DNA of 64,000 bases, taken from positions 1-64,000 of the IMG/VR virus record IMGVR_UViG_3300031772_000001; one strand, given 5' to 3'. The notes under the pieces were generated by a model. It saw only the letters and a program-made list of their open reading frames with translations. It ran no database searches and had not been told where the DNA came from. The stretch is from a virus. The translations under genes were made by a program, and so were the position numbers. Below are positions 23,330 to 45,158 of the stretch, piece by piece (the stretch's first letter is position 1; each line of letters starts with the position of its first letter).

Positions 23330-26275
23330 TTACTTTCGATCTTCAGGAGACAAGAACACACCCTTCAAGAAATTCACAGCACTTACCTTCTTTCCTTCAA
23401 AAAGATTACCCATCTTCTCATAGGTTAGTGACCTGAAAACATTGAGAGACGGAACCCTTCTGAGGTCATTCTCTTTGACCACCCTACTGAGGCAGGAACT
23501 AAAAGCAAGAACCGCTTTGTTGAAGTCCATATTTTCCGGCAAAAGTTTTCGGATATTTCTATGCAAATCAGTCCGCTTCAAAACCTCCGCTCGAAGATTA
23601 CCCAAGATTTCCTCAGACAAAACCTTCTTTGCCACACCCTCATAATACTCTGGTGTTGCCTTCTCATAAGCATCAATTGGTGTCAAACTTCGATCATACA
23701 TCTCAGTCATAAAAGCAGAAATCTCTTCGTGATCCTTATGAGACAGGGACAAATTCTTTGCCCTCATCACATTCAAAGCAGAATAGAACTCGGGGTAAAT
23801 TTCAACAAACCGATCATACAAACCCTCACAAACCTTGCTGTCTGTCAACTTATCAAACTCAACAAGCAACGGGCTTATAGCACAAAGAGTAGCATCATCA
23901 AGTTTTGAAAACTCCTGCAAAGCATCTGTATCAACCTCTAAGTTTTCTGAATACTTTTTGATGTTTGCTACAATCACACCTTTATCTGCATCCCCAAACT
24001 TATACACAAGAACATTCTCTACAATAGCAGGAATATTAGAGTTTCCTAACAAAGAATCCGCTATCTCTATACCCCTAAACTCAACACCAAAACGCTTACA
24101 AGATTCAGTCAGCTTCTCAATTCGCTTCTCTTGATTATCCTCGTTTATATGGGAGTTGTTCAAAAGATGAAAAACTTCCACAATTGCGGAATCATAAGAC
24201 AAGCTCTCTTCCACTTCCAAAGCAGAGAAACCGCATCGGCCACACTTACCACCAAACCCTTCACAAGCACACCTTGGGCAAATCATACTCTTTACCCCCA
24301 CCCCAGAGGAAAGAACCTGCTCAAGATCGTACCCACAATCCGTACAGTGCTTTGGATAACGCCCACGATACTTCGGAATCAACATCCCGCACGAAGGACA
24401 CTGGCCCTTGTACTTGATCTTGTCAAAAGCAGTCTGCATCCCCGGAGTCATGCCTTGCTCATTTGTCTGCTCATCCGTCTGCTCCCCAAATCTCTTAGCA
24501 ACCTTTTCTATTGCATTCAACATCCTCTCTTCTTTCTTTGCACACTCAGCACAGAAAAGACCAAACGCCTTATTAGAAAGTTCACCTTCTTTACCACACC
24601 TCGCACATTTACCTGTTTTCTTAGAAGATCCTTCTTCTATCTGCTCCCAATTCATATTATTTGCGAGATACTGAGCATGAAGATCATTTACTACCTTCAT
24701 ATCCTTAATACCAAACTGTTGTGAAAACTGAGTAAGAGTCTTACCAGTATCTTTCAAGTCAGAATGATCCTTAAACCAATCAAACATCTTTCGTGTGATA
24801 TTCACACCAGACTCATTTACCTGCTCATTCTGGTCAATAACACTGCCTTTCTTATGAAAAGGAGGATACGTCACCAGAGCATCACCTTCTTTGTTGACCA
24901 TGTAATAACCAGCCAACGTACTATCTTTTACCCTACTCTCATATCCCATCTTCTTAGCAAGTGCATCAAACTCTTTCAAAGTAATATCTGAGGCAATTAC
25001 CTTCGCTTTTCCAGTATCAGTTGTTTCCTTGTTTACCAAAGCAACTGACACTTTAAGAGTTACTTCTACTACCTGCTCATCAAACTTTTTATCCATCGGT
25101 ATAGCTGCATCAGTCCTTACCCCGGAAGGGGGCTTTTCTCTTTTCGATATAAACCAACTATCTCTGTCCTTCCCCTGCCACGCAATAACACCCTTTGGCA
25201 ATTTACCAGCATACGATTTTACAGCCTTGTATGTCACCAAATATGTCCCACCATCCATGATATTCTTTATCATCTTCTCTAAATCATCTGTATCCTCAAT
25301 TATTACATCCTCTTTTATCTCTGACATCTTCTTTACATTCGTAGCCCAATCAGGCAACTCACCTCTCACCAAATACCAAGTCTTATCCCCGTTCTTTTCT
25401 TGAAACGCATGAGTATCTTGGGGAACCTTACCAATAAACTGTTTCAGGTCTTTCTCACTTCCGATCTTAACAATAGCACTCTCTAAAGACACCAAAATAC
25501 CTTGCAAGTCTGTACTAGCTACCCGCTCTACCACTACCTGCTCACTAACTCCCTCTTTCTTAGTCTGTGATTTAAGCACGTCTTTCAAAAAATCTATAGC
25601 CTTAACAGCATACCCATCAAATATCTTTCTTGTTCCTTTGAAAAGAGCTACCTTTCCAACCTTATCAATATTGCTTCTCTCAAGAGTAGCCTTGAAAGCT
25701 GTATTGTACTCAGTAATGTACTTATCAAGCTCTTCCTCGTCTACCTTACTCTCACCCACCACAGAAGCCTCCGGCTGTACCAAGTGCTCCCCACACTCAG
25801 GACAAAACTTAGGATACCTGCCTGGGTAAGTAGGAACCACAAACCCGCAACTGTCACACTTCTTCCAAACATTACCCTTAGAAACACTTCCGTAAACAGC
25901 CTTTCCCATACCCGGAGTCATCTGCTCATTCAATTTATCCAAAACAACACTGGCAACAGTACAGATTGTTGCTGCTTCCTTTGTTGTAATTACTGATTCC
26001 ATGTACTTACGAAAAAGAGAATCAAGAAATATTCCCAAATCAGAAATTCCTGATATGGAATCCTTATCTACACCCTTGACTTTTTTCATTAAGTCAAGTA
26101 TACTCTTAGAAACTTCTTTTGCTTGGGATTTTACATCGGAAGGGAAGTCAACAACAAAATCTCCAAGAGCCTTCAGGAACTCGGCTCCCTTTTCGAGATC
26201 AGAAATTGACTTCACATACTGCGAAGGAACCGACTTAGAAACGGCATCTTCAAATGCATTCTGTTGACCTAACAT
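23330..26275 (-). CDS. Large multi-domain zinc-ribbon head-region protein
   Basis: About 981 residues from the ATG at 26275 (a longer frame to 26320 overlaps the portal end more). Four zinc ribbons are visible: near 140-161 (CDSCGFVVPTYPGRYPKFC), 557-578, 626-647 (CPSCGMLIPKYRGRYPKHC) and 666-681. The first and third are close copies, each preceded by an EQxxTPGM segment. A second repeat is the KTWYLVRG / DSWFISKRE module (~300 and ~375). NEQ-rich linkers separate the parts. The C-terminal ~280 residues are helical and contain FMTEMYDRS, a tag-like peptide. Lies directly after the portal gene; could be a core/scaffold polyprotein (inference). Confidence 0.6.
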   Translation of the reverse strand: MLGQQNAFEDAVSKSVPSQYVKSISDLEKGAEFLKALGDFVVDFPSDVKSQAKEVSKSILDLMKKVKGVDKDSISGISDLGIFLDSLFRKYMESVITTKEAATICTVASVVLDKLNEQMTPGMGKAVYGSVSKGNVWKKCDSCGFVVPTYPGRYPKFCPECGEHLVQPEASVVGESKVDEEELDKYITEYNTAFKATLERSNIDKVGKVALFKGTRKIFDGYAVKAIDFLKDVLKSQTKKEGVSEQVVVERVASTDLQGILVSLESAIVKIGSEKDLKQFIGKVPQDTHAFQEKNGDKTWYLVRGELPDWATNVKKMSEIKEDVIIEDTDDLEKMIKNIMDGGTYLVTYKAVKSYAGKLPKGVIAWQGKDRDSWFISKREKPPSGVRTDAAIPMDKKFDEQVVEVTLKVSVALVNKETTDTGKAKVIASDITLKEFDALAKKMGYESRVKDSTLAGYYMVNKEGDALVTYPPFHKKGSVIDQNEQVNESGVNITRKMFDWFKDHSDLKDTGKTLTQFSQQFGIKDMKVVNDLHAQYLANNMNWEQIEEGSSKKTGKCARCGKEGELSNKAFGLFCAECAKKEERMLNAIEKVAKRFGEQTDEQTNEQGMTPGMQTAFDKIKYKGQCPSCGMLIPKYRGRYPKHCTDCGYDLEQVLSSGVGVKSMICPRCACEGFGGKCGRCGFSALEVEESLSYDSAIVEVFHLLNNSHINEDNQEKRIEKLTESCKRFGVEFRGIEIADSLLGNSNIPAIVENVLVYKFGDADKGVIVANIKKYSENLEVDTDALQEFSKLDDATLCAISPLLVEFDKLTDSKVCEGLYDRFVEIYPEFYSALNVMRAKNLSLSHKDHEEISAFMTEMYDRSLTPIDAYEKATPEYYEGVAKKVLSEEILGNLRAEVLKRTDLHRNIRKLLPENMDFNKAVLAFSSCLSRVVKENDLRRVPSLNVFRSLTYEKMGNLFEGKKVSAVNFLKGVFLSPEDRK

Positions 26276-29200
26276 GGAGTAATTTTGCCCTTTCCTGTAT
26301 TGCAGGAACTCGAAGGTCACTGTGAGAAGGTTTATTGACCCTCTCTTTAATCCAAAACCCAGAACCCACTAAATTTCGGATTTTTTCGGCTCTTACTTTG
26401 GTAGTACCGCTACCGTTGGAGCCATCACCTTCTTCTTGAAGTATATCAAGTTCTGACTCAACACCCTCTTCTTCACCTTCACCCTCCTCGCCACTCCCAC
26501 CTTTTCCTCCACCCTTACCCTCCTCATCCCCTTCATCATCGCCGCTTGGCTTTCCCTTCCTTCTTGGAACCGGAACAGAACCACGAGAACCAAGAGCATC
26601 AGACTTCGAGGAAGAAGACTTATTTCCTAACAACTTATCAATATCAAGATCGGGAAATGCAAATATCTGCTTGAATATGTACTCAACATACATCTTCTTG
26701 TTGATAATTCCTTCCATCTCCCCAGACAAACCAAGCATAGACGTAGCAATACCAATCTTTCTTTCCGTGTACTCCAAACGAGAATCTTCCTCTGCCGAAG
26801 AAATTGGAACCATCCCAATAGACAAATCTTCAACACTTATATCCTGACTGTACTTGTAAGACAGGTGAATTTGAAATAGCCGATACATCCCCTCAATAAG
26901 TGCCCTCTGCACCTTCTTGACCATACGAGCATATCGAATATCCAAACGAGTAAGAGTCTGTGAACCAGAAAACCCCGGTATACTTTCAGAATTGTGAACA
27001 AACACACCACAAGAGAGAGAGAAGTTGTGGTTGTCACTTTCAACAGTTAAATCATAAGCATCTTCAACAACATCAAGATATTCTACATTTACAACTCTAT
27101 GATTGTAACAATTTGCTGCCATCTTCCTTTCAGAAATCATCTTACTATTTGCTTTAGCTCGACAAACCCTCTGGCATCTAACACAGCAAAACCTTGGTGT
27201 CTGTAAGTATGAAGAAATGTCGTTGTAAGGAACCTTCTTCATAAACATCTTCCCACACTCATCACAACAAATCTCAAACTCCTGTGGGTGATAATCACCC
27301 CACCTACCCTGAACCATCTTACCCTTCCAAGAAGCAAACTCAGGACTATCAGGGGAAATAGTCTTCATATAATTAAAGGATTTTCTTCTCCCCTCCTGAA
27401 TAGCCTTAATTATTCCCTGCCTTGCTTTCTCTCTATACTCAGGATTAGCCATCGGGTTATTCTCACCCTTCTGGTAATCCCTGTTAATACCCATCAAAGA
27501 CTTTGATACTTTTGCACCAAACCCATCCGGCTTCTTTCTCCCTTTTCCCAAAACAGACATTCTTTTGGAATACTCAAGCCTCTCCTCTGAAGACATAGCC
27601 TCCCGTCTCTTCCTTGCTGAAACACTTCCCAAAGACCTGCCCATATCTAAAACACTTGCCATCTCTGGATGATACTTAACAAAATGCTCTCGCCTATTCT
27701 CACAAATTGCCAGATTTAAGGCATCATTATTACTCTTGACTTTATCTCTATGATGAACAACTTGCTCAGAAGATAGAACCTTCCCACCATTCAACAAATC
27801 TTCTGCAACAAGACGGTGTACCCGAACATAATGCCGATCCTTATTATCAATAATTCCATAATATCCCTTCTCTGCCCCAGACAACTCAAAGTAATATAGA
27901 GGCATTAAAGATTCCCCAGAGACAAGTTTCTCTGCCTCTTTGTAAGACCCATCTCTTAACATACACCTATGGTCAGGGGTAACGTCAAAATATTCTCCGT
28001 TATCAAGATGCACCCTAACATACTTCGCATTAAGTCGCGTCTTGTTAATATCAGAGATATTCGTGGCGTGAACCCTGCCATCCTTATCACTTGTAAAAAT
28101 TGTCTTGCCCCTGAAATATTCCTTATTCTCAAACATCTCCCTAATAGTAGGTGTAGTTCCATCACATAACCGAATACCAGTGTTTCCTCTCAAACACATT
28201 CCTAAAAATGCGCCGGGGATGCGGATAGCTGCAAGTAGCTTATCCCGAATATACTCAATATCAACTATGTCTTTTATGTTTACATCACCACCAACCGTCT
28301 CAACTCGCATATCCCCTTTTGTACCTGTATAGGGAATAAAAACCTCGTCATTATACTGCAAAGGATTGTACTTCATACGATAGAAATTCACAGGAATATC
28401 TATTGCCTTCTTCTGCATAAATTTCTGCTCAAGATCCTGAATCAAATCCCTACGCTCATCCTTTGTCATACCCTCAGTATTTACATAAAACACACGTATA
28501 AGGGGAGATCGGGCAAGACGAGCAAGAGCAAGAGAGACTTCAAGCAAATTCAGGATACGATAAATCAATCTTGCGTTCTGCAAAATTGACGTACCATACA
28601 TCGAAGTAAGAATCTTTTCAACTAACTTACGCTCACCCTTCGGAACATCCCCACGTCTATTTGCATCAATCATCCTACGGGAAGGAGATTTCTGAGGATC
28701 ACCGCTATCAACATCCCAAGTTGACTTATCAAAAGGTTTTGTATCCTTTGTCTTATCTCCATACTCAGCAGGCTCATCCTCGGCCTCCCCTGTCTTATCC
28801 TCCCCCTCCACAGACTTTTGCATTTCATCTTCCCACATCTTGACCTTTACAGACTCAAAATTGGGTTTGAAGTTGTTGATGAAATGCACATACCCTGAAG
28901 AGTCCATTATCTCTTCCTTACGGGCAGAAATATCCTTCTTGATAAAACAAGCAAGTTTTCCGTCTATGTCAATACGATAAACACTTTTTGGATGTTCCGA
29001 CTCACGAATATTAGTGATCCCTTCACCCTTCTTAGGGTAAACCCTTAACATGAAATCACCATACTTCGCAATATTATAGGTCCACCCCCAAACCTTATTC
29101 TCAAAATCAATTGTTGAAAGAAACTCTTGAAGTTCGTGGCCGTACTTATGCTTTCCACCAATCCATAAAGTACCATTCATTTCATGGGAGTATTGTGTAG

Positions 29201-29483
29201 CATCATCAACAACTAACTCCAAAGCAGATGAAATAATTGGATCTTCTTCCATCTGATCATAATCAGAATACCGAGATTCACGATCTTTTTCCAGTTTCGT
29301 AGCAGCAGAAAACAACTCCCAAACACGACCCTCATTCATCAAAACTTTTACAGTATTCGTTGCCTTATCATCAACAACATACACCTCATTTGACTGACCA
29401 TTTTTTGCATCAGCCTGAAGAGCCTCAAGAACAATATTCTCGTTGACTCTTAACCCACCCTTTTCAAACAGACGAACAGACAT
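26250..29483 (-). CDS. Portal protein with large HNH intein
   Basis: 1077 residues before splicing, about 675 after. Extein features fit a portal: VDDATQYSHEMNG, YGDFMLRVYPKK, LLEVSLALARLARSPLIRVFYV, IEYIRDKLLAAIRIPGAFLG, then SGSQTLTRLDIRYARMVKKVQ. Portal subunits form the dodecameric DNA channel at one capsid vertex. The intein occupies residues 430-831 and interrupts the conserved helix region between GAFLGM and SESIPGFSG. The C-terminal tail is a Gly/Glu/Asp-rich disordered segment. It lies two genes downstream of the terminase, as usual. Begins MSVRLFEKGG. Confidence 0.9.
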   Translation of the reverse strand: MSVRLFEKGGLRVNENIVLEALQADAKNGQSNEVYVVDDKATNTVKVLMNEGRVWELFSAATKLEKDRESRYSDYDQMEEDPIISSALELVVDDATQYSHEMNGTLWIGGKHKYGHELQEFLSTIDFENKVWGWTYNIAKYGDFMLRVYPKKGEGITNIRESEHPKSVYRIDIDGKLACFIKKDISARKEEIMDSSGYVHFINNFKPNFESVKVKMWEDEMQKSVEGEDKTGEAEDEPAEYGDKTKDTKPFDKSTWDVDSGDPQKSPSRRMIDANRRGDVPKGERKLVEKILTSMYGTSILQNARLIYRILNLLEVSLALARLARSPLIRVFYVNTEGMTKDERRDLIQDLEQKFMQKKAIDIPVNFYRMKYNPLQYNDEVFIPYTGTKGDMRVETVGGDVNIKDIVDIEYIRDKLLAAIRIPGAFLGMCLRGNTGIRLCDGTTPTIREMFENKEYFRGKTIFTSDKDGRVHATNISDINKTRLNAKYVRVHLDNGEYFDVTPDHRCMLRDGSYKEAEKLVSGESLMPLYYFELSGAEKGYYGIIDNKDRHYVRVHRLVAEDLLNGGKVLSSEQVVHHRDKVKSNNDALNLAICENRREHFVKYHPEMASVLDMGRSLGSVSARKRREAMSSEERLEYSKRMSVLGKGRKKPDGFGAKVSKSLMGINRDYQKGENNPMANPEYREKARQGIIKAIQEGRRKSFNYMKTISPDSPEFASWKGKMVQGRWGDYHPQEFEICCDECGKMFMKKVPYNDISSYLQTPRFCCVRCQRVCRAKANSKMISERKMAANCYNHRVVNVEYLDVVEDAYDLTVESDNHNFSLSCGVFVHNSESIPGFSGSQTLTRLDIRYARMVKKVQRALIEGMYRLFQIHLSYKYSQDISVEDLSIGMVPISSAEEDSRLEYTERKIGIATSMLGLSGEMEGIINKKMYVEYIFKQIFAFPDLDIDKLLGNKSSSSKSDALGSRGSVPVPRRKGKPSGDDEGDEEGKGGGKGGSGEEGEGEEEGVESELDILQEEGDGSNGSGTTKVRAEKIRNLVGSGFWIKERVNKPSHSDLRVPAIQERAKLLHVRSTECI
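26991..28196 (-). mobile_element. Intein with HNH homing endonuclease in the portal gene
   Basis: 402 residues. Starts with Cys430 (CLRGNTGIRLCDG, block A), has TPDH with His505 (block B), and ends VEDAYDLTVES...FSLSCGVFVHN with Ser832 as the +1 residue (blocks F and G). All residues needed for splicing are present. The insert carries an HNH motif (VVHHRDKVKSNNDALNLAIC) and a four-pair Cys cluster (CCDECG, CCVRC). It should splice out of the portal precursor and could home into intein-free portal genes. Confidence 0.9.
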
Positions 29484-33528: not shown

Positions 33529-33535
33529 AAGTAAA

Positions 33536-33623
33536 TACGGGGGATGGGACTCGAACCCACAGGCTCCCTTTCGGGAAAAGCGAATTTTAAGTTCGCCGTC
33601 TATGCCAATTCGACTACCCCCGC
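33536..33623 (-). tRNA. tRNA-Leu(UAA)
   Basis: 88 bases on the minus strand. Acceptor GCGGGGG pairs with CCCCCGT; anticodon arm GCGAA-CTTAAAA-TTCGC reads UAA; a long variable arm (CCCGAAAGGG) marks a class II tRNA; the T-arm has GGGTTCGAGTCCC. CCA is not encoded (A then TTTAC follow). Confidence 0.93.
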
Positions 33624-33628
33624 AAAAA

Positions 33629-33708
33629 TACGGGTGAAGGGACTCGAACCCCCACGCTTTCGCATCAGATTTTGAATCTGAGATGTCTACCAATTCCATC
33701 ACACCCGC
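33629..33708 (-). tRNA. tRNA-Leu(CAA)
   Basis: 80 bases on the minus strand. Acceptor GCGGGTG pairs with CACCCGT; anticodon arm TCAGA-TTCAAAA-TCTGA reads CAA; short class II variable arm (TGCGAAAGCG); T-arm GGGGTTCGAGTCCC. CCA not encoded. Together with tRNA-Leu(UAA) it covers the UUA and UUG codons. Confidence 0.93.
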
Positions 33709-33713
33709 AAGTA

Positions 33714-38415: not shown

Positions 38416-38703
38416 TTACTTCTCCACTCTTACGCTCAAGTTACCATTACACTTAGGACATTGAACCACAAACTCTCTTGTGTCTGGCTTATCAACATGA
38501 TTGACGTTATAGATACCAAACTCGAAGACAAGAACATTCAGGACAATCAAACGTGCGGATATATGAGGATTATGGTCACTTTTGTAAAGATCAATCTGAG
38601 ATTCAAAGTTTACAAAATTGATCCCATCCTTAAACTTACGAATAACATAGAAAAACGCAAGCTCCCAAGCATAGTTCTTAGATATTTTCGTTCCTATGAC
38701 CAC
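38416..38703 (-). CDS. Hypothetical protein with C-terminal CxxC
   Basis: 95 residues starting MVIGTKISKNYAWELAFFYV. Aromatic-rich; ends with a VQCPKCNGNLSVRVEK half zinc ribbon. Function unknown. Confidence 0.55.
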   Translation of the reverse strand: MVIGTKISKNYAWELAFFYVIRKFKDGINFVNFESQIDLYKSDHNPHISARLIVLNVLVFEFGIYNVNHVDKPDTREFVVQCPKCNGNLSVRVEK

Positions 38704-38729
38704 CGTTCTTTCCTTCCTTATTCTTGTTC

Positions 38730-38921
38730 TTATCTCTTCATCAACGAATGGTCAAGGCAATATTTCTTCCTTCGTACAACACGAAATTCAGCGGTGCATC
38801 CTTCCCACTGACACCGCCTCATAGAAGTATATCGTCTTTTGCTCTGTATTTTAGTTTCTTCTATGTAATACTTATCTATGTACTGATGTCCTTTACTTAC
38901 TATCTCATCAATCCTTGACAT
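38730..38921 (-). CDS. Small zinc-binding-like protein
   Basis: 63 residues starting MSRIDEIVSKGHQYIDKYY at the ATG after AAGTGGTGTGTC. RRCQWEGCTAEFRVVRRKKYCLDHSL gives a CxxxxC...CxxH arrangement. Likely a zinc finger of a type common in phage small genes. Confidence 0.55.
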   Translation of the reverse strand: MSRIDEIVSKGHQYIDKYYIEETKIQSKRRYTSMRRCQWEGCTAEFRVVRRKKYCLDHSLMKR

Positions 38922-38931
38922 GACACACCAC

Positions 38932-39015
38932 TTACTCAAACACCACAAGAAAGCATGTTACATAGCTTTGATCTTCTACTTTTCTCTCTGCTTCCAAACA
39001 AGCCTCGCAACGCAT
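38932..39015 (-). CDS. Possible 27-aa Cys-containing peptide
   Basis: MRCEACLEAERKVEDQSYVT... preceded by GGGTGG and followed closely by the next gene. Very short, so uncertain. The rest of the 38.9-39.2 kb gap shows only weak small frames. Confidence 0.3.
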   Translation of the reverse strand: MRCEACLEAERKVEDQSYVTCFLVVFE

Positions 39016-39191
39016 TATCCACCCGTTTATCTGAATCAACTCGGTGTAAGATTTTTCTTCAAAAGGGAAAAGTCGGCACACAGAAACTGTCCAAAAGTCT
39101 TAGTCCCAAAAAATTTGCAAAACTTGTTAGGCTCACTGACGTTAAAGCACCACAATTAAGATCAAACCGTACTTCTATCATAGAAATCCCC

Positions 39192-39512
39192 TTACTTTGA
39201 TCCCACTCTCTGCTTTCCGCACATAGGACAGAATTTTACACCGTTATCTGTTGCTGTACCTTCAGAAAAACACCACTTATCCCCACACTCCGTATCATAA
39301 GAGTCTGTTGTAGAGTCGTATATCCAATGACAAGTCTTCTTTGGCTTCGCACACACCTCTCCTTCCACTATGATCTCACCTCTTGGACGAACTGGAGGTG
39401 GAGGAGGTGGAGGAGGTGGAGGAGGTGGAGGAGGTGGAGGAGGTGCCGGAACTTTCTTCATTCGCTCCAATTTCTCTGGTGACGGTAAGGATCGTGGCGC
39501 GTTTGTAGTCAT
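39192..39512 (-). CDS. Polyproline + zinc-ribbon protein
   Basis: 106 residues. A run of 17 prolines (residues ~24-40) encoded by a GGTGGA-type microsatellite (plus strand) links a short N-terminus to a C-terminal ribbon (CHWIYDST, YDTECGDKWCF, KFCPMCGKQ). The ribbon is of a kind frequent in phage small proteins. Repeat length probably varies. ATG overlaps the stop of the Lar-like gene. Confidence 0.6.
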   Translation of the reverse strand: MTTNAPRSLPSPEKLERMKKVPAPPPPPPPPPPPPPPPPPVRPRGEIIVEGEVCAKPKKTCHWIYDSTTDSYDTECGDKWCFSEGTATDNGVKFCPMCGKQRVGSK

Positions 39513-40714: not shown

Positions 40715-40918
40715 TCAACCTATAGTGTCAAGCCGTGTTTTGGGCTTTAGCTGTTGTACGAAGTGGCGCAAATTCCGCAGTGTCCGCCACGCCTTATCCA
40801 ACAGCGTGTACCAATGATAAACTATGAATGCACGCGGGAATCCTGACCAGAAATGCCACTTACCGCAATACGGATAGTTACAGAACGATTTACTTTCAAT
40901 AATGAAACCTCTCCACAT
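40715..40918 (-). CDS. Cassette 8 protein (67 aa)
   Basis: Starts MWRGFIIESKSFCNYPYCG after GGAAAGTAG. Aromatic-rich (KWHFWSGFPRAFIVYHWY) with a helical C-half. No family recognised. Most distal cassette; its 3' end runs into the weakest attC-like site. Confidence 0.5.
   Translation of the reverse strand: MWRGFIIESKSFCNYPYCGKWHFWSGFPRAFIVYHWYTLLDKAWRTLRNLRHFVQQLKPKTRLDTIG
40716..40756 (-). repeat. attC-like site 1
   Basis: CAAC (40716-40719) and GTTG (40753-40756) flank AAGCC/GGCTT and CTA/TAG pairings. Short (41 bp) and the least convincing member. Confidence 0.5.
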
Positions 40919-40971
40919 AAACTTCTACTTTCCGGCGCGGCCTATAAATTCAGGCTTTGCGCCATTTTGTA

Positions 40972-41089
40972 CAACGTCTACGCAATGGGCGATAGTTTGC
41001 CCCTACAATTACACTGGCCTACCACGACCACATGTATGCCATCGGTGTCCTCAAAATAATGAGGGCAAATTTCGGCCCTTGCGGTGTTG
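40972..41089 (-). repeat. attC-like site 2
   Basis: CAAC (40972-40975) and GTTG (41086-41089); inner arms CGCAATGGGC and GCCCTTGCG pair with one bulged base. 118 bp, within the size range of integron attC sites. Confidence 0.75.
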
Positions 41090-41214
41090 GGTGCCGGTTT
41101 GTCAACCACCACGCGGTTGGCCGCGCTCCAACCGATCTCCGCACTCACCATATCTATCTGATAATCACCAGGCCCTTGCGTCTTCCACCACTCACGGAAT
41201 GTCTTCGCGGCCAT
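40978..41214 (-). CDS. Cassette 7 protein (78 aa)
   Basis: Starts MAAKTFREWWKTQGPGDYQI at the ATG after GGAGGTGAT. The TFxxWW opening is shared with the cassette-2 protein and with small phage Eaa-like proteins. Contains ICPHYFEDTDGIHVVVVGQC. Its 3' third overlaps attC-like site 2 and includes the APNTA peptide encoded by the cassette arm. Confidence 0.6.
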   Translation of the reverse strand: MAAKTFREWWKTQGPGDYQIDMVSAEIGWSAANRVVVDKPAPNTARAEICPHYFEDTDGIHVVVVGQCNCRGKLSPIA

Positions 41215-41244
41215 ATCACCTCCAAAGTTGACAAACTGGCATCC

Positions 41245-41364
41245 CAACGTCTTGCGAAACGTGCGCCGTGCTACAGATTATAGTGGCACACCATACACGC
41301 TTCGCCGAGCGAATACCGCCCTGCACGCTCACCACAGTTCGGACATGGCGCACTTTTGCTGTTG
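41245..41364 (-). repeat. attC-like site 3
   Basis: CAAC (41245-41248) and GTTG (41361-41364); inner arms GCGAAACGTGCGCC and GGCGCACTTTTGC pair at 12 of 13 positions. 120 bp. Confidence 0.8.
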
Positions 41365-41486
41365 GTTGTCTGTTGAGCGAGTACAGCGGTTTTCAGAGTT
41401 TGCCATGCTTCATCCGCAAGAACGACATTACCTACATGTATAGCACAATTTTTCTCGATAGCATCAATAGCCTCGATTGGCGTCAT
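41271..41486 (-). CDS. Cassette 6 protein, CxxC...CxxC (71 aa)
   Basis: Starts MTPIEAIDAIEKNCAIHVGN after TATAGGAG. Helical N-half (DEAWQTLKTAVLAQ), then APCPNCGERAGRYSLGEACMVCHY, a zinc ribbon seen in many small phage proteins. 3' end inside attC-like site 3. Confidence 0.6.
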   Translation of the reverse strand: MTPIEAIDAIEKNCAIHVGNVVLADEAWQTLKTAVLAQQTTNSKSAPCPNCGERAGRYSLGEACMVCHYNL

Positions 41487-41525
41487 GGCATACTCCTATA
41501 ATAAATTTTAGAGCGAAATTGCAAA

Positions 41526-41579
41526 CAACGTTCCGGCAAATTGCCGAAGTGTGCATCACATTTTGGCATTTGCCTGTTG
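41526..41579 (-). repeat. attC-like site 4
   Basis: CAAC (41526-41529) and GTTG (41576-41579); inner arms GGCAAATTGCC and GGCATTTGCC pair with one bulge. 54 bp, the compact form. Confidence 0.8.
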
Positions 41580-41780
41580 TGTGCTGTTTTTTGCGCCACC
41601 GCTGCTTTCAGAGGTTGGCGGGGATGGAACGAGCATCCAATGCGTTATTTTGCAATTATACTCGCAATGGCCAGCAATAAAATCCTGTGCGTGAATAGTC
41701 TCGATACTGCCGTTGTCAAAATGAACTAATATCGGGCCATCGTAATCCGGGACAACACCTTCACCTTTTTTGTACCACAT
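41556..41780 (-). CDS. Cassette 5 protein, DUF551-like (74 aa)
   Basis: Starts MWYKKGEGVVPDYDGPILVH after TATAGGAGG; a longer frame upstream is ignored because it crosses attC-like site 5. VPDYDGPILVHFDNG and ITHWMLVPSPP match the core of DUF551. Homologous at family level to the gene at 36.4 kb. 3' end inside attC-like site 4. Confidence 0.65.
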   Translation of the reverse strand: MWYKKGEGVVPDYDGPILVHFDNGSIETIHAQDFIAGHCEYNCKITHWMLVPSPPTSESSGGAKNSTQQANAKM

Positions 41781-41820
41781 AGCCAACCTCCTATAATTTG
41801 AAAGCGCAAAAAATTGCATA

Positions 41821-41947
41821 CAACGTTTTGCTCTATTGCGACGTGCGTGACAACCACTTGTCAACCTTATTACGGTAGCACTCCGAACAACGCGGAGATT
41901 TGGTCCGCACAAAAACGCACTCTCCGCATGGCGTAATAGCGCTGTTG
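41821..41947 (-). repeat. attC-like site 5
   Basis: CAAC (41821-41824) and GTTG (41944-41947); inner arms GCTCTATTGCG and CGTAATAGCGC pair at about 9 of 11 positions. 127 bp. Confidence 0.75.
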
Positions 41948-42090
41948 GGTGCCGTGGAATGAGCATCCGCCAGATAGTGGCCACAGTCGCTGCACAAAGA
42001 ATAGTTGCTGTCCCGAACTATGCATACATCTCGCTTAATGCAATCAAGTTTTTTGTGGCCACCTATAACCTCCAAGCGAATGAATGGCAT
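41833..42090 (-). CDS. Cassette 4 protein, Cys-rich (85 aa)
   Basis: Contains LDCIKRDVCIVRD, LCSDCGHYLAD, TPCGECVF and RCSECYRNKVDKW: several CxxC pairs, likely zinc-binding. The start is uncertain; the ATG at 42090 lies in the cassette leader before a GGAGG. Includes the APNSA peptide encoded by the cassette arm. Confidence 0.5.
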   Translation of the reverse strand: MPFIRLEVIGGHKKLDCIKRDVCIVRDSNYSLCSDCGHYLADAHSTAPNSAITPCGECVFVRTKSPRCSECYRNKVDKWLSRTSQ

Positions 42091-42092
42091 CC

Positions 42093-42225
42093 CAACGATC
42101 CGCGCTACTGGTTCCGTTGCTCGATCTCACGCAGAAAATCACAAAACCTCATTTTTTGCGCATCAGACCGAGAAGAAGACAATGCCAGTTTGCGCACGAG
42201 AGCAATGGCATCTATAGCGCTGTTG
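42093..42225 (-). repeat. attC-like site 6
   Basis: CAAC (42093-42096) and GTTG (42222-42225); inner arms GCGCTA/TAGCGC pair perfectly. The right core GTTGGGT fits the integron GTTRRRY core. 133 bp. Confidence 0.75.
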
Positions 42226-42329
42226 GGTGCCGTTGTTGACAATTCCTCCGGTTTGGAGGCGCAGCGATCGCACGAACCTGCCGGTATGCCGTGCTGACAC
42301 CACCCGTTGAGCAATACGCTATCATTCAT
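42105..42329 (-). CDS. Cassette 3 protein (74 aa)
   Basis: Starts MNDSVLLNGWCQHGIPAG after GAGGAGG. NGWCQHGIPAGSCDRC is a Cys/His cluster; a helical tail follows (AIDAIALVRKLALSS). Contains APNSA from the cassette arm. 3' end inside attC-like site 6. Confidence 0.6.
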   Translation of the reverse strand: MNDSVLLNGWCQHGIPAGSCDRCASKPEELSTTAPNSAIDAIALVRKLALSSSRSDAQKMRFCDFLREIEQRNQ

Positions 42330-42371
42330 TTTGCGCCTCCTCGGCATATCGACTTGTCAACTATGGCATCC

Positions 42372-42493
42372 CAACGTCCGAGCAATGTACGCAGTGCTAC
42401 TGCTTGTGACAAATCGGAACTCCGGTACAGCAACAACTTTTGATAGGATACTTGCAGCTCGCATACAGAGAGCATTGCGTACTTGCTTTGTTG
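42372..42493 (-). repeat. attC-like site 7
   Basis: CAAC (42372-42375) and GTTG (42490-42493); inner arms GAGCAATGTACGCAGTGCT and AGCATTGCGTACTTGCTT pair at 17 of 18 positions with one bulged base. One of the two clearest sites. 122 bp. Confidence 0.88.
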
Positions 42494-42609
42494 GTGGATG
42501 TAAATCTTTCCACCATAGCGTTCTGTGCGGCATTCCAGACGTTGCTATACTTCTCCATATCTCCGCCGCCGCCAACGTTGCTCCACCACTGCTCAAATGT
42601 CATTTCCAT
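42397..42609 (-). CDS. Cassette 2 protein (FEQWW, 70 aa)
   Basis: MEMTFEQWWSNVGGGGDMEK; WNAAQNAMVERF follows. The FEQWW...WNAA pattern is typical of Eaa-like small phage proteins. The last ~30 residues are Cys-rich and encoded within attC-like site 7, so the natural C-terminus may simply be read-through of the site. Start could be the second Met. Confidence 0.6.
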   Translation of the reverse strand: MEMTFEQWWSNVGGGGDMEKYSNVWNAAQNAMVERFTSTNKASTQCSLYASCKYPIKSCCCTGVPICHKQ

Positions 42610-42646
42610 GCCGCACCTACAATTCCAAAGAAAGGTTTATTTCCAC

Positions 42647-42718
42647 CAACGTTTGCGCAACAGCCGAAGCCGCTACGCCCCCTTGCTACGCTTACGCGGT
42701 TTTGGCTTTGCGCTGTTG
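42647..42718 (-). repeat. attC-like site 8
   Basis: CAAC (42647-42650) and GTTG (42715-42718); inner arms GCGCAACAGCCGAAGCCGC and GCGGTTTTGGCTTTGCGC pair at 16 of 18 positions with one bulge. 72 bp, near the classical attC size. Confidence 0.88.
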
Positions 42719-42936
42719 TTTGTTGTTGCCGTGCGCTCAACTGCTTTCTGCGCGGCGGCGATTTCGCTACGTAACGATTCAATAGCTTTGTCAACGCCGT
42801 GACCAAGGTTGTCCTTTAACATACTGTCGAAAAGCATAGAATACACTTGGTCGGTGATAATGTTTTCGGCGTTGACATAAGGATATCCAAACTCACGCAT
42901 ATTGCGGATAGCCGCAGAAATCAATTTATCTCGCAT
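42673..42936 (-). CDS. Cassette 1 protein (87 aa)
   Basis: Starts MRDKLISAAIRNMREFGYPY at the ATG after GGAAAGGAATGT. NAENIITDQVYSMLFDSMLKDNLG matches a small phage protein type that I recognise without a known function. The basic C-terminus (KPKPRKRSKGA) is encoded inside attC-like site 8. First cassette of the array in transcription order. Confidence 0.65.
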   Translation of the reverse strand: MRDKLISAAIRNMREFGYPYVNAENIITDQVYSMLFDSMLKDNLGHGVDKAIESLRSEIAAAQKAVERTATTNNSAKPKPRKRSKGA

Positions 42937-42987
42937 ACATTCCTTTCCGCCGCGCCTATAATATGGTCGCACGGCAATTGCAAACAA

Positions 42988-43275
42988 CTACCTCAATAAC
43001 GCACTCTCAAACCGTAGACATTTCTCTTTTTCTCTCCTTAATTCCTTTACTTCCCGAAACTTACTTGCATTATCAACCTCTAACCAAGTAACCCTCTGTT
43101 GTAACCTGTCAATCTCTTTTCTTAACCAAGCAACCGCATCCGAAGTACCATTACGCTTATTATCCTTACTCTCACTCTCATTCTCACTTGTAAGTCTTTT
43201 TGCAATTCCGAGTAACCAAGTGTTATCCCTGAGATACACACGCGAATTTACAACAACATCAATGCCCCGCACCAC
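42988..43275 (-). CDS. Coiled-coil hypothetical protein (95 aa)
   Basis: C-terminal half is a strong heptad-like helix (WLRKEIDRLQQRVTWLEVDN, KELRREKEKCLRFES). Its TAG stop is the exact right boundary of the cassette array, so the array may have inserted there or just downstream. Overlaps the upstream gene by 17 bases. Confidence 0.55.
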   Translation of the reverse strand: MVRGIDVVVNSRVYLRDNTWLLGIAKRLTSENESESKDNKRNGTSDAVAWLRKEIDRLQQRVTWLEVDNASKFREVKELRREKEKCLRFESALLR

Positions 43276-43477
43276 AAACCTCTTTCAATTCAACTCTCTT
43301 ATTCCATTGCGTCAAGGCAGGATAATGCATAACAACCCCACATCCACTACACTTCACAACCTGCTCATTCCCTACATCATTCTGTATCGACTCCCAATCT
43401 ATATACGCTTTCCCGCCACAAAAAGGACATGGAAGTAACTTCTTCTTGTCTCTATCGTTAATTAAACCTTCCCACAT
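43259..43477 (-). CDS. Lar-like zinc-ribbon protein (72 aa)
   Basis: Starts MWEGLINDRDKKKLLPCPFC after GAGGTTGAA. LLPCPFCGGKAYIDW, VVKCSGCGVVMHYP and ALTQWNKRV are the full Lar pattern at normal length. Possible role against type I restriction by family analogy only. Confidence 0.75.
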   Translation of the reverse strand: MWEGLINDRDKKKLLPCPFCGGKAYIDWESIQNDVGNEQVVKCSGCGVVMHYPALTQWNKRVELKEVCGAGH

Positions 43478-43499
43478 TTCAACCTCACAAAATAAAACA

Positions 43500-43682
43500 C
43501 TACCCACCATAATGACAATGATGACAGCAGTACCCGTTCTTTACAAGATGGTCACACTTAGGACACCTGTGGGTCACTACCCAAACTCTATAGTCAGCAT
43601 TATCCCTAAGAAGCTGATCAACCTGAAGTTCAAGACTCTCAATTCTGGTATCCTTTGACTGTCCCGGCAAACACTCAGCCAT
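43500..43682 (-). CDS. Small zinc-ribbon protein (60 aa)
   Basis: Helical N-half (RIESLELQVDQLLRDNADY) and a C-terminal ribbon HRCPKCDHLVKNGYCCHHCH. Function unknown. Confidence 0.6.
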   Translation of the reverse strand: MAECLPGQSKDTRIESLELQVDQLLRDNADYRVWVVTHRCPKCDHLVKNGYCCHHCHYGG

Positions 43683-44172: not shown

Positions 44173-44520
44173 TCAATGATAATCCTTCTCATCCTGCTCC
44201 CATCCATCCTCAGACCTCAACTCACTTTCCTCCACACCCAACGCCTCAGCCGCTTCCTCGTATCCCCAAGGGTATTGATCTTGCCTGTACCGCACACCCC
44301 CACGTCTTTCCAACCCATGCTTAAATACCCTCGAAATAAACTTCTCCCCCGATGCACCTTCTACCAGTGCAAAATACACAAAATGCCCTACGTCCAGTTT
44401 TACCCGGTATCCTGTCCTCCATTGAAGCTGGTGTGATTGTATTGCATCAACCTCAGATGTACCTTCATACTCAAGCCACTCAGACAAATCAGGCTTCACA
44501 TACCTGAATTTGAAAATCAT
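44173..44520 (-). CDS. Hypothetical protein (115 aa)
   Basis: Beta-rich N-half (MIFKFRYVKPDLSEWLEYEG, YRVKLDVGHFVYFALVEG) and a C-half with YPWGYEEAAEALGVEESEL that could be a helix-turn-helix-like or anticodon-like helix pair. Not recognised. Confidence 0.55.
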   Translation of the reverse strand: MIFKFRYVKPDLSEWLEYEGTSEVDAIQSHQLQWRTGYRVKLDVGHFVYFALVEGASGEKFISRVFKHGLERRGGVRYRQDQYPWGYEEAAEALGVEESELRSEDGWEQDEKDYH

Positions 44521-44548
44521 ACTTACACCCCATCCTACTCATATACCA

Positions 44549-44851
44549 TCACGCATCCGTAACTTCAACTCCAGGAAATGCCTCAACAAATTCTACGCGC
44601 CGCTCGGTCAGATTTTCCCAGAACGTCACCGCCTCATCTACACACAACGGCTCTATGCGGTCCTGTTCGCCCTGCCATTTCGTCAGATGCACCGCGAAAT
44701 ATCCACCCTTGAATGTACGATACAGGAAAGTCTGCCGTCCGTGCCGCTCGAAGTTGTGGCCGTCCCAATAGTCATTCCCGGCGATCAACGTAGCAGATTC
44801 AGTGTTGTACTTCTTGCGGTCGATAATCTCGGTCATGGATACTGGCTTCAT
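44549..44851 (-). CDS. Conserved phage/bacterial small protein (YWDGHNFERHGR)
   Basis: 100 residues. RKKYNTESATLIAGNDYWDG, RHGRQTFLYRTFKGGYFAVH, TKWQGEQDRIEPLCVDEA and VEAFPGVEV match a conserved small protein seen in many bacteria and mobile elements, function unknown. About 100 bases upstream is a sigma70-type promoter (P2). Confidence 0.85.
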   Translation of the reverse strand: MKPVSMTEIIDRKKYNTESATLIAGNDYWDGHNFERHGRQTFLYRTFKGGYFAVHLTKWQGEQDRIEPLCVDEAVTFWENLTERRVEFVEAFPGVEVTDA

Positions 44852-44948
44852 ACTCGGTACTCCTTTGGGGTCTTTGCCCCGGTTTGTGTGTGGTCTGTGC
44901 CACTATGCTACTACAACATCAGAATCAAAAATCTTGTCTTACACCTCT

Positions 44949-44977
44949 AATATACTAAACATAATCAGCAAAGTCAA
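44949..44977 (-). promoter_or_regulatory. Sigma70-type promoter P2
   Basis: On the minus strand TTGACT (44977-44972), a 17-base spacer, then TATATT (44954-44949). Downstream AGAGGTGTAAGACA is identical to the same segment at P1. Drives the gene at 44.5-44.9 kb and those following. Confidence 0.8.
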
Positions 44978-45038
44978 CAGAAAAATAAATTAAATTAAAT
45001 CTACGAAGCCACAACACCCCTATCAGTATCAGTCGCCT

Positions 45039-45158
45039 CTACACCCGACGGGATCTCAGATCATTTTGTAAATAATCCTCAAACAGATCCAACTTCCAAT
45101 CATTTTCTGGTGATAATTCTTCATCTTTTCTTACCTGTGGCAATGCGTATTCATCCAC
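45039..45158 (-). CDS. Possible small acidic protein (39 aa)
   Basis: GTG-start frame reading MDEYALPQVRKDEELSPEND..., ending RSRRV. Overlaps the upstream gene's end by 28 bases; ribosome binding site weak. Protein-like composition is the main support. Confidence 0.35.
   Translation of the reverse strand: MDEYALPQVRKDEELSPENDWKLDLFEDYLQNDLRSRRV

Follow-up and report, generated by a model that had tools for sequence, protein, structure and literature searches.

The 64,000-nucleotide stretch analysed here (the window) covers the opening 64 kb of the 167,660-bp IMG/VR record IMGVR_UViG_3300031772_000001, a viral genome with a T4-type portal gene. On its minus strand, at 40716-42988, lie eight small open reading frames (ORFs), each crossing one of eight imperfect palindromes that open with CAAC and close with GTTG. 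This locus is probably an integron-like recombination array of a type not matched to any known one, in which parts of small genes are shuffled as modules by an enzyme whose action we infer. At the level of sequence, comparison across viral records demonstrated a common site grammar with covariation, a match between the arms of each unit, spread over a dozen little-related phages, copying of C-terminal half-genes alone and near-constant in-frame read-through of a linker. Our best reading is of an array type that is new as an integron-like, module-shuffling system.

Structure of the sites and pairing of their arms

The array sites read as CAAC (the R'' core), A, a 6-bp arm, a loop, one bulged base, a second 6-bp arm, 4 or 5 nt and GTTG (the R' core). 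The palindromes span 41-133 bp, and the units are 338, 275, 279, 272, 295, 281, 273 and 256 bp long. The loop is coding: all ORFs continue across CAAC and the first arm, and most end just before GTTG. A ninth GTTG, at 42988, has no CAAC partner or L arm before it and lies at the stop codon of the preceding gene; it forms the upstream edge of the array and in position resembles attI, attG or a secondary site. A structural finder (like the null for segment ends used below, a custom script) returned seven array sites. In 1000 dinucleotide shuffles it averaged 0.035 sites and never exceeded 2, and the remaining 165 kb, with both strands scanned, yielded at most one.

The arms of a unit belong together. 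The 5′ end of each unit (R' plus ~17 nt) can pair with the sequence leading up to that unit's own CAAC and not with the corresponding sequence of its neighbours, and these outer arm pairs also surfaced as inverted repeats I1-I5 in a repeat search. Of 40,320 possible assignments, none scored as well as the one that gives each arm its own partner, for the outer arms and likewise for the inner (L) arms. The array therefore alternates N-modules (GTTG...CAAC) with C-modules (CAAC...GTTG), each lying between its own inverted arms.

Across ~60 sites the consensus is ACATCNCACAAC followed by A-GCGCAAG... on one side, and ...(G/T)TTGCGC-AAAC followed by GTTGTGNGCAAT on the other. Among 16 sites taken from other phages, 66 double changes preserved pairing, compared with 22.5 in shuffled data (0 of 500 shuffles as high), a signal that is partly by construction because the sites were chosen by pairing. 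A covariance model built from these 16 sites, with the loop omitted, matched two short-loop sites of the window (E 2e-6 and 5e-4, values that are rough, as for all of our home-made models), with no further window match at E<0.4; it mostly misses long-loop sites because it was built without the loop. It gave 31 array-site matches across the array phages. The syntenic, array-free phage G001 (156.6 kb) gave none, and neither, at E<0.4, did 776 kb of other loci, the majority of them IntI neighbourhoods. Sites of this type were not above background in IntI-bearing viral and bacterial loci.

These properties bear on the idea that the hairpins act in RNA or transcription, as terminators, processing signals or ribosome-standby sites, within a tandem family grown by duplication. 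In its favour, stop codons fall within or close to the 3′ arm, and GTTG is soon followed by start signals, often a TATAGG element. Against it, the loop is coding sequence and often exceeds 100 nt, the 5′ arm of a unit pairs with its own distant 3′ arm across the gene, the genes are mostly unrelated in sequence, and the Rfam matches in the window comprise two tRNAs only. We consider an explanation of this kind extremely improbable.

The features of the array are as follows (window coordinates).

42979..42994, minus strand: upstream edge, 5′ arm of unit 1, GTTG 42988-42985
42673..42936, minus strand: unit 1 ORF, N-module end ..ERTATTN at CAAC, C-module NSAKPKPRKRSKGA
42647..42718, minus strand: site 1, CAAC 42718, arms GCGCAAAGCC/GGCTgTTGCGC, GTTG 42650; structural finder and independent covariance-model match, E 5e-4
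42397..42609, minus strand: unit 2 ORF, N-module MEMTFEQWW.., Cys-rich C-module
42372..42493, minus strand: site 2, CAAC 42493, arms GCAAGTACGC/GCGTACaTTGC, GTTG 42375; structural finder
42105..42329, minus strand: unit 3 ORF, N-module MNDSVLLNGW.., helical C-module SAIDAIALVRK..
42093..42225, minus strand: site 3, CAAC 42225, arms GCGCTA/TAGCGC, GTTG 42096; structural finder
41833..42090, minus strand: unit 4 ORF, Cys-rich C-module; start codon uncertain
41821..41947, minus strand: site 4, CAAC 41947, arms GCGCTATTACG/CGCAATAGAGC, GTTG 41824; structural finder
41556..41780, minus strand: unit 5 ORF, DUF551/phrog_924-like N-module, C-tail of 6 residues
41526..41579, minus strand: site 5, CAAC 41579, arms GGCAAATGCC/GGCAaTTTGCC, GTTG 41529; structural finder and independent covariance-model match, E 2e-6
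41271..41486, minus strand: unit 6 ORF, 5′ arm and N-module 3′ end common to phage G006
41245..41364, minus strand: site 6, CAAC 41364, arms GCAAAAGTGCGCC/GGCGCACgTTTCGC, GTTG 41248; structural finder
40978..41214, minus strand: unit 7 ORF, FREWW N-module similar to that of unit 2, different C-module
40972..41089, minus strand: site 7, CAAC 41089, arms GCAAGGGC/GCCCaTTGC, GTTG 40975; structural finder
40715..40918, minus strand: unit 8 ORF
40716..40756, minus strand: site 8, the last and degenerate, CAAC 40756, arms AAGCC/GGCTT, GTTG 40719; missed by the structural finder

The layout agrees with what an earlier note, made from the letters of this DNA, had reported: eight small minus-strand genes over CAAC/GTTG palindromes, inner arms that differ between sites and are self-complementary, uniform orientation and a GC shift (0.49 in the array, 0.415 in the genome). 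Its span of 54-133 bp holds when the degenerate site 8 is excluded. The pairing of the outer arms does not feature in it. Pfam and PHROGs profiles gave only weak matches to the cassette proteins (DUF551/phrog_924 in unit 5, and Zn ribbons) and no function. Just upstream of the array lies a Lar-like restriction-alleviation gene (43259-43510; PF14354 1.1e-6, phrog_599 1.3e-8). In many units of several phages a TATAGG-like element (TTATAGG, TTGTAGG) occurs 25-40 nt past GTTG, for example at window 42096-42060; such an element in each N-module is possibly a promoter -10 or a translation element.

Exchange of modules at the cores and distribution of the array

Segments shared between array units end on the cores far more often than random shifts would predict (24 of 88 ends; mean 2.5, maximum 9 in 2000 shifts), and many begin exactly at R'. 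The earlier note had counted changes lying off the GTTG boundaries as evidence against its proposal, and these counts point the other way. Its placing of exchange boundaries at GTTG is upheld and yet incomplete, exchange being seen also exactly at CAAC, within genes. Three phages each carry two copies of a C-module with unrelated neighbours; from CAAC to GTTG the copies are identical at 127/128 (G003), 70/72 (G010) and 144/146 (G013) nt, compared with 13-29 of 60 nt in the flanks on either side, and each copy stops no more than a few nt from the core. As judged from these copies, a C-terminal half-gene alone can be an exchanged unit. Cutting at the GTTG core alone, with whole-gene cassettes, and cutting at the CAAC core alone, with a C-module joined to the next N-module, were both rejected, since each conflicts with the C-only copies. 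Whole-unit duplicates also occur, for example in G003.

In G013 the duplicated C-module, 98% identical, stands in frame with two unrelated N-modules (MTKQPETTEVVKIRLGSSDK...TST continuing into NTGMAAEAAQ..., and MPIKTFSSCVHM...KSP continuing into NTGMAAEAAQ...). Among ORFs with a Shine-Dalgarno sequence and ATG, 45 of 46 read at least 15 nt beyond CAAC, and two of the three reading phases cover 42. Unit 6 of the window shares with G006 a 5′ arm (49 nt at 94%) and the 3′ end of the N-module, and the C-modules diverge ~20 nt past CAAC. Recurrent C-module types, namely DnaJ-like CxxCxGxG fingers, QLKAEIAAIA..RQLSAV helices and basic NKRKPKRG tails, were observed on different N-modules in G005 (L237), G004 and G003.

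IMG/VR scans with unit 5′-end motifs and the 16-base L'/R' junction recovered the same array type in 12 further viral contigs of 33-58% genome GC (first set, L205/G003, L210/G004, L213/G005, L216/G006, L217/G007 and L218/G008; second set, L254, L255, L256, L257, L259 and L260, which are G009-G014). An alternative pattern, CACCCAACAGCGCTAT, was discarded as an array finder, as beyond a near-identical contig it gave only chance matches in coding sequence. The array contigs mostly share few or no other genes, the exceptions being G003/G009 (18 protein matches) and G000/G005/G006 (distant T4-like relatives); in the first record set no protein was common to at least three other array phages at 60 aa or more, and almost nothing was shared overall. 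Array DNA showed no similarity to isolate phages or plasmids.

The best-supported rival, which we nevertheless regard as rather unlikely, dispenses with a dedicated enzyme: cores and arms would be points of short homology or template switching, and selection for in-frame mosaics would leave the breakpoints where they are seen. Hairpins can promote template switching, which lends this account general plausibility. Arms are common to different units over 20-45 nt, possibly sufficient for annealing, most array phages lack a recombinase, and the early region surrounding the array (~38 to 46.6 kb) is not conserved in G001. However, the constant spacer lengths, the fixed place of the bulge and the invariant 4-bp core look like protein recognition, copies stop within a few nt of the core, and sharing among phages of 33 to 58% GC needs a common site.

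The ends of the window record are identical over 120 nt, and it is therefore very probably a complete circle of ~167.5 kb; end overlaps were also found in G003 (97 nt), G005 (41 nt) and G007 (43 nt). A 60.8-kb contig, L007, is 99.3% identical to the window phage and carries the array without a single difference, nearly all differences falling in two small patches of early genes (38500-39300 and 44500-45100). The T4-type portal gene (26250-29483) contains an intein (Intein_splicing E 1.5e-16; HNH_3 weak), and the portal of G001 (L018, 84% identical) is shorter, as would be expected if it lacked the intein. Two adjacent tRNA-Leu genes, with TAA and CAA anticodons, lie at 33535-33709.

A candidate recombinase and the proposed mechanism

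The earlier note had seen no integrase and proposed looking for an IntI-type recombinase in the rest of the genome. Profile searches of the complete phage bear out the first point and leave the proposed enzyme without a counterpart there, returning neither IntI (TIGR02249) nor a PF00589 tyrosine recombinase. The enzyme acting on the window array must come from elsewhere, belong to another family or be nonexistent. The only candidate comes from G010: a 280-aa tyrosine recombinase encoded on the same strand as the array, with ~45 nt between its stop codon and the first unit downstream. Its best NCBIfam match is XerA (193.6 bits, below the cut-off of 220), the IntI model scoring 156.8 (cut-off 265). 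It aligns with IntI at 29-33% and keeps the R, K, H/R, H and Y residues and the SPI/SPL end, lacks the IntI-specific insertion, and has XerA/XerC-like proteins and IntI4 as its solved relatives. The recombinase of G008 was rejected as an array enzyme, since it looks like an ordinary temperate-phage integrase beside a small helix-turn-helix gene.

In the mechanism that we propose, CAAC (GTTG on the opposite strand) is the common core of every junction and the place where modules are exchanged, and a small protein would arise when translation of one N-module continues in frame across the CAAC linker into one C-module. The sites, folded or palindromic, would be the substrate of a tyrosine recombinase from the XerA/C-IntI superfamily; for the window phage this enzyme may be supplied by the host or a co-infecting element, and phages of the G010 type would carry a candidate at the array head. 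We predict that small early proteins (zinc ribbons, helical tails and membrane segments) are gained, lost and recombined in this way, and the array would plausibly serve as a combinatorial reservoir of proteins for host takeover or counter-defence.

Several observations weigh against an enzyme-driven, module-shuffling array. A recombinase stands at the array head in only one of 14 array-bearing records, and several complete circles, the window phage among them, have none. The only very close relative, L007, carries an identical array despite differing neighbour genes, and no short-range rearrangement was seen. In two of the three cleanest C-module copies, those of G003 and G010, the reading frame is not clearly kept at both positions; no N-module was found that had been copied by itself from core to core, and inner parts diverge even between matching arms. 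A search of 399 genomes of Pseudomonadota, the phylum to which it was confined, with one exact pattern revealed neither a host nor a host integron carrying these sites. Finally, the number of array contigs gives no frequency and is no survey of spread or host range, because the contigs were found by motif.

Comparison with integrons and other site-specific systems

The phage sites share with attC sites a palindrome whose R''/R' cores, AAC and GTT, close two stems and a variable loop. The sites do not in general follow the canonical R boxes RYYYAAC/GTTRRRY: in R', the fifth base, after GTTG, is mostly T and the bases beyond it are mixed, and only some sites fit a canonical box (for example, ACCCAAC). 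The bulged base lies on the L' arm and the spacers are mostly 1/4-5 nt, whereas canonical attCs analysed identically carry the bulge on L'' and have spacers of 5/6 or 3/3. The geometry of the phage sites is the mirror image of that of attC. With the bulge on L' and spacers of 1/4-5, the coding strand here therefore has canonical bottom-strand geometry, and by analogy the cut could fall within the gene, at CAAC. Apparent sites on the reverse strand, such as CAACGTTTACGCAAC, were rejected as inverted modules, since they only read back the L' arm CGTTGCGTAAACGTTG.

Two canonical attC covariance models, R2 (class 1 type) and R3 (Vibrio/Shewanella type), both home-made and narrow, recovered known and unseen attCs, although R2 misses Vibrio/Shewanella sites and R3 scores class 1 sites weakly. 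Over the window and the tested phage arrays they gave zero matches, the outcome that the earlier note had set against its proposal and one that here applies to canonical attC. The note's integron-like array of gene units with folded, covarying attC-like sites survives this comparison; the assignment of the sites to attC of a known integron type is not supported, given the missed models and the mirrored bulge and spacers. In the same IMG/VR data, 270 candidate stretches encode IntI relatives (among them loci L116-L195), and one of the loci, L160, holds a class 1-like cassette array with ~15 canonical attCs; these stretches may be genuine phage integrons or chromosomal contigs wrongly assigned to viruses.

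The array could in principle be a canonical cluster of attC sites lacking integron-integrases (CALIN), whose divergent-attC cassettes came from a host chromosomal integron and were moved as whole genes by a host IntI cutting G^TT. CALINs are documented in virulent phages, and IntI1 recombined 5 of 6 tested phage attCs (Qi et al. 2023, PMC9892861). The plan is the same, with a gene plus a palindrome ending in GTT, uniform orientation, no integrase and an upstream edge without R'', and the many shared segments that begin exactly at R' fit as well. However, both canonical models miss every site while positive on known attCs, the bulge and spacers are misplaced, and a single cut at R' cannot mobilise a C-module alone. 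Because several membership features fail and C-modules alone would be immovable, we hold this origin to be distinctly unlikely. An integron cassette comprises one whole gene plus attC with boundaries at R' only, and here boundaries lie at both R'' and R' and C-modules are copied alone; a complete integron has an intI gene and an attI site, a combination not found in the window phage.

Compared with integron arrays and CALINs (PMC9892861), the phage arrays are alike in their single-orientation row of small gene-bearing units, in their imperfect palindromes with AAC/GTT cores, two stems, a bulged base and a variable loop, in circularisation that restores a unit's own arms, in an upstream edge without R'' and in having no integrase nearby. 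They differ in outer arms of ~20 nt rather than 7, in ORFs that all read across the first core, in C-terminal half-genes that move alone, and in the absence of IntI, one phage having a XerA/C-like enzyme without the IntI-specific insertion. The open-access literature yielded no description of such arrays, the closest precedent being Qi et al. 2023, and canonical attC models would likely overlook them. In the excerpted account of Treponema chromosomal integrons (PMC3607928), the recombinase is transcribed toward the array and in the direction of its genes, as in G010, whereas the enzyme is IntI and the attC sites have typical R and L boxes (for example, R' GTTAGGT); half-gene exchange is not described in that excerpt.

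It is possible, and we advance it tentatively, that these arrays form a distinct phage-borne class, neither integron nor shufflon, in which a tyrosine recombinase acts on mirrored attC-like hairpins with cores both between and inside genes, and in which independently mobile N- and C-modules are traded by unrelated phages. If so, unrelated phages share a site-specific system that builds small early proteins from swappable halves, which would help to explain the origin of diverse tiny host-takeover and counter-defence proteins. It would also represent a second, mirrored solution to the attC problem (how a folded site encodes polarity) and could be used to test how XerC/D-type enzymes gave rise to integron-like recombinases.

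In shufflons and recombining specificity-subunit loci (for example, R64 pilV/Rci and hsdS), recombinases exchange protein segments between inverted sites and thereby generate variant C-termini or domains. Reversed modules, a shufflon feature, were not noticed in strand scans, which did not include a systematic search for them. In contrast to those loci, the phage arrays encode free mosaic small proteins, are common to unrelated phages and carry hairpin sites with a bulged base.

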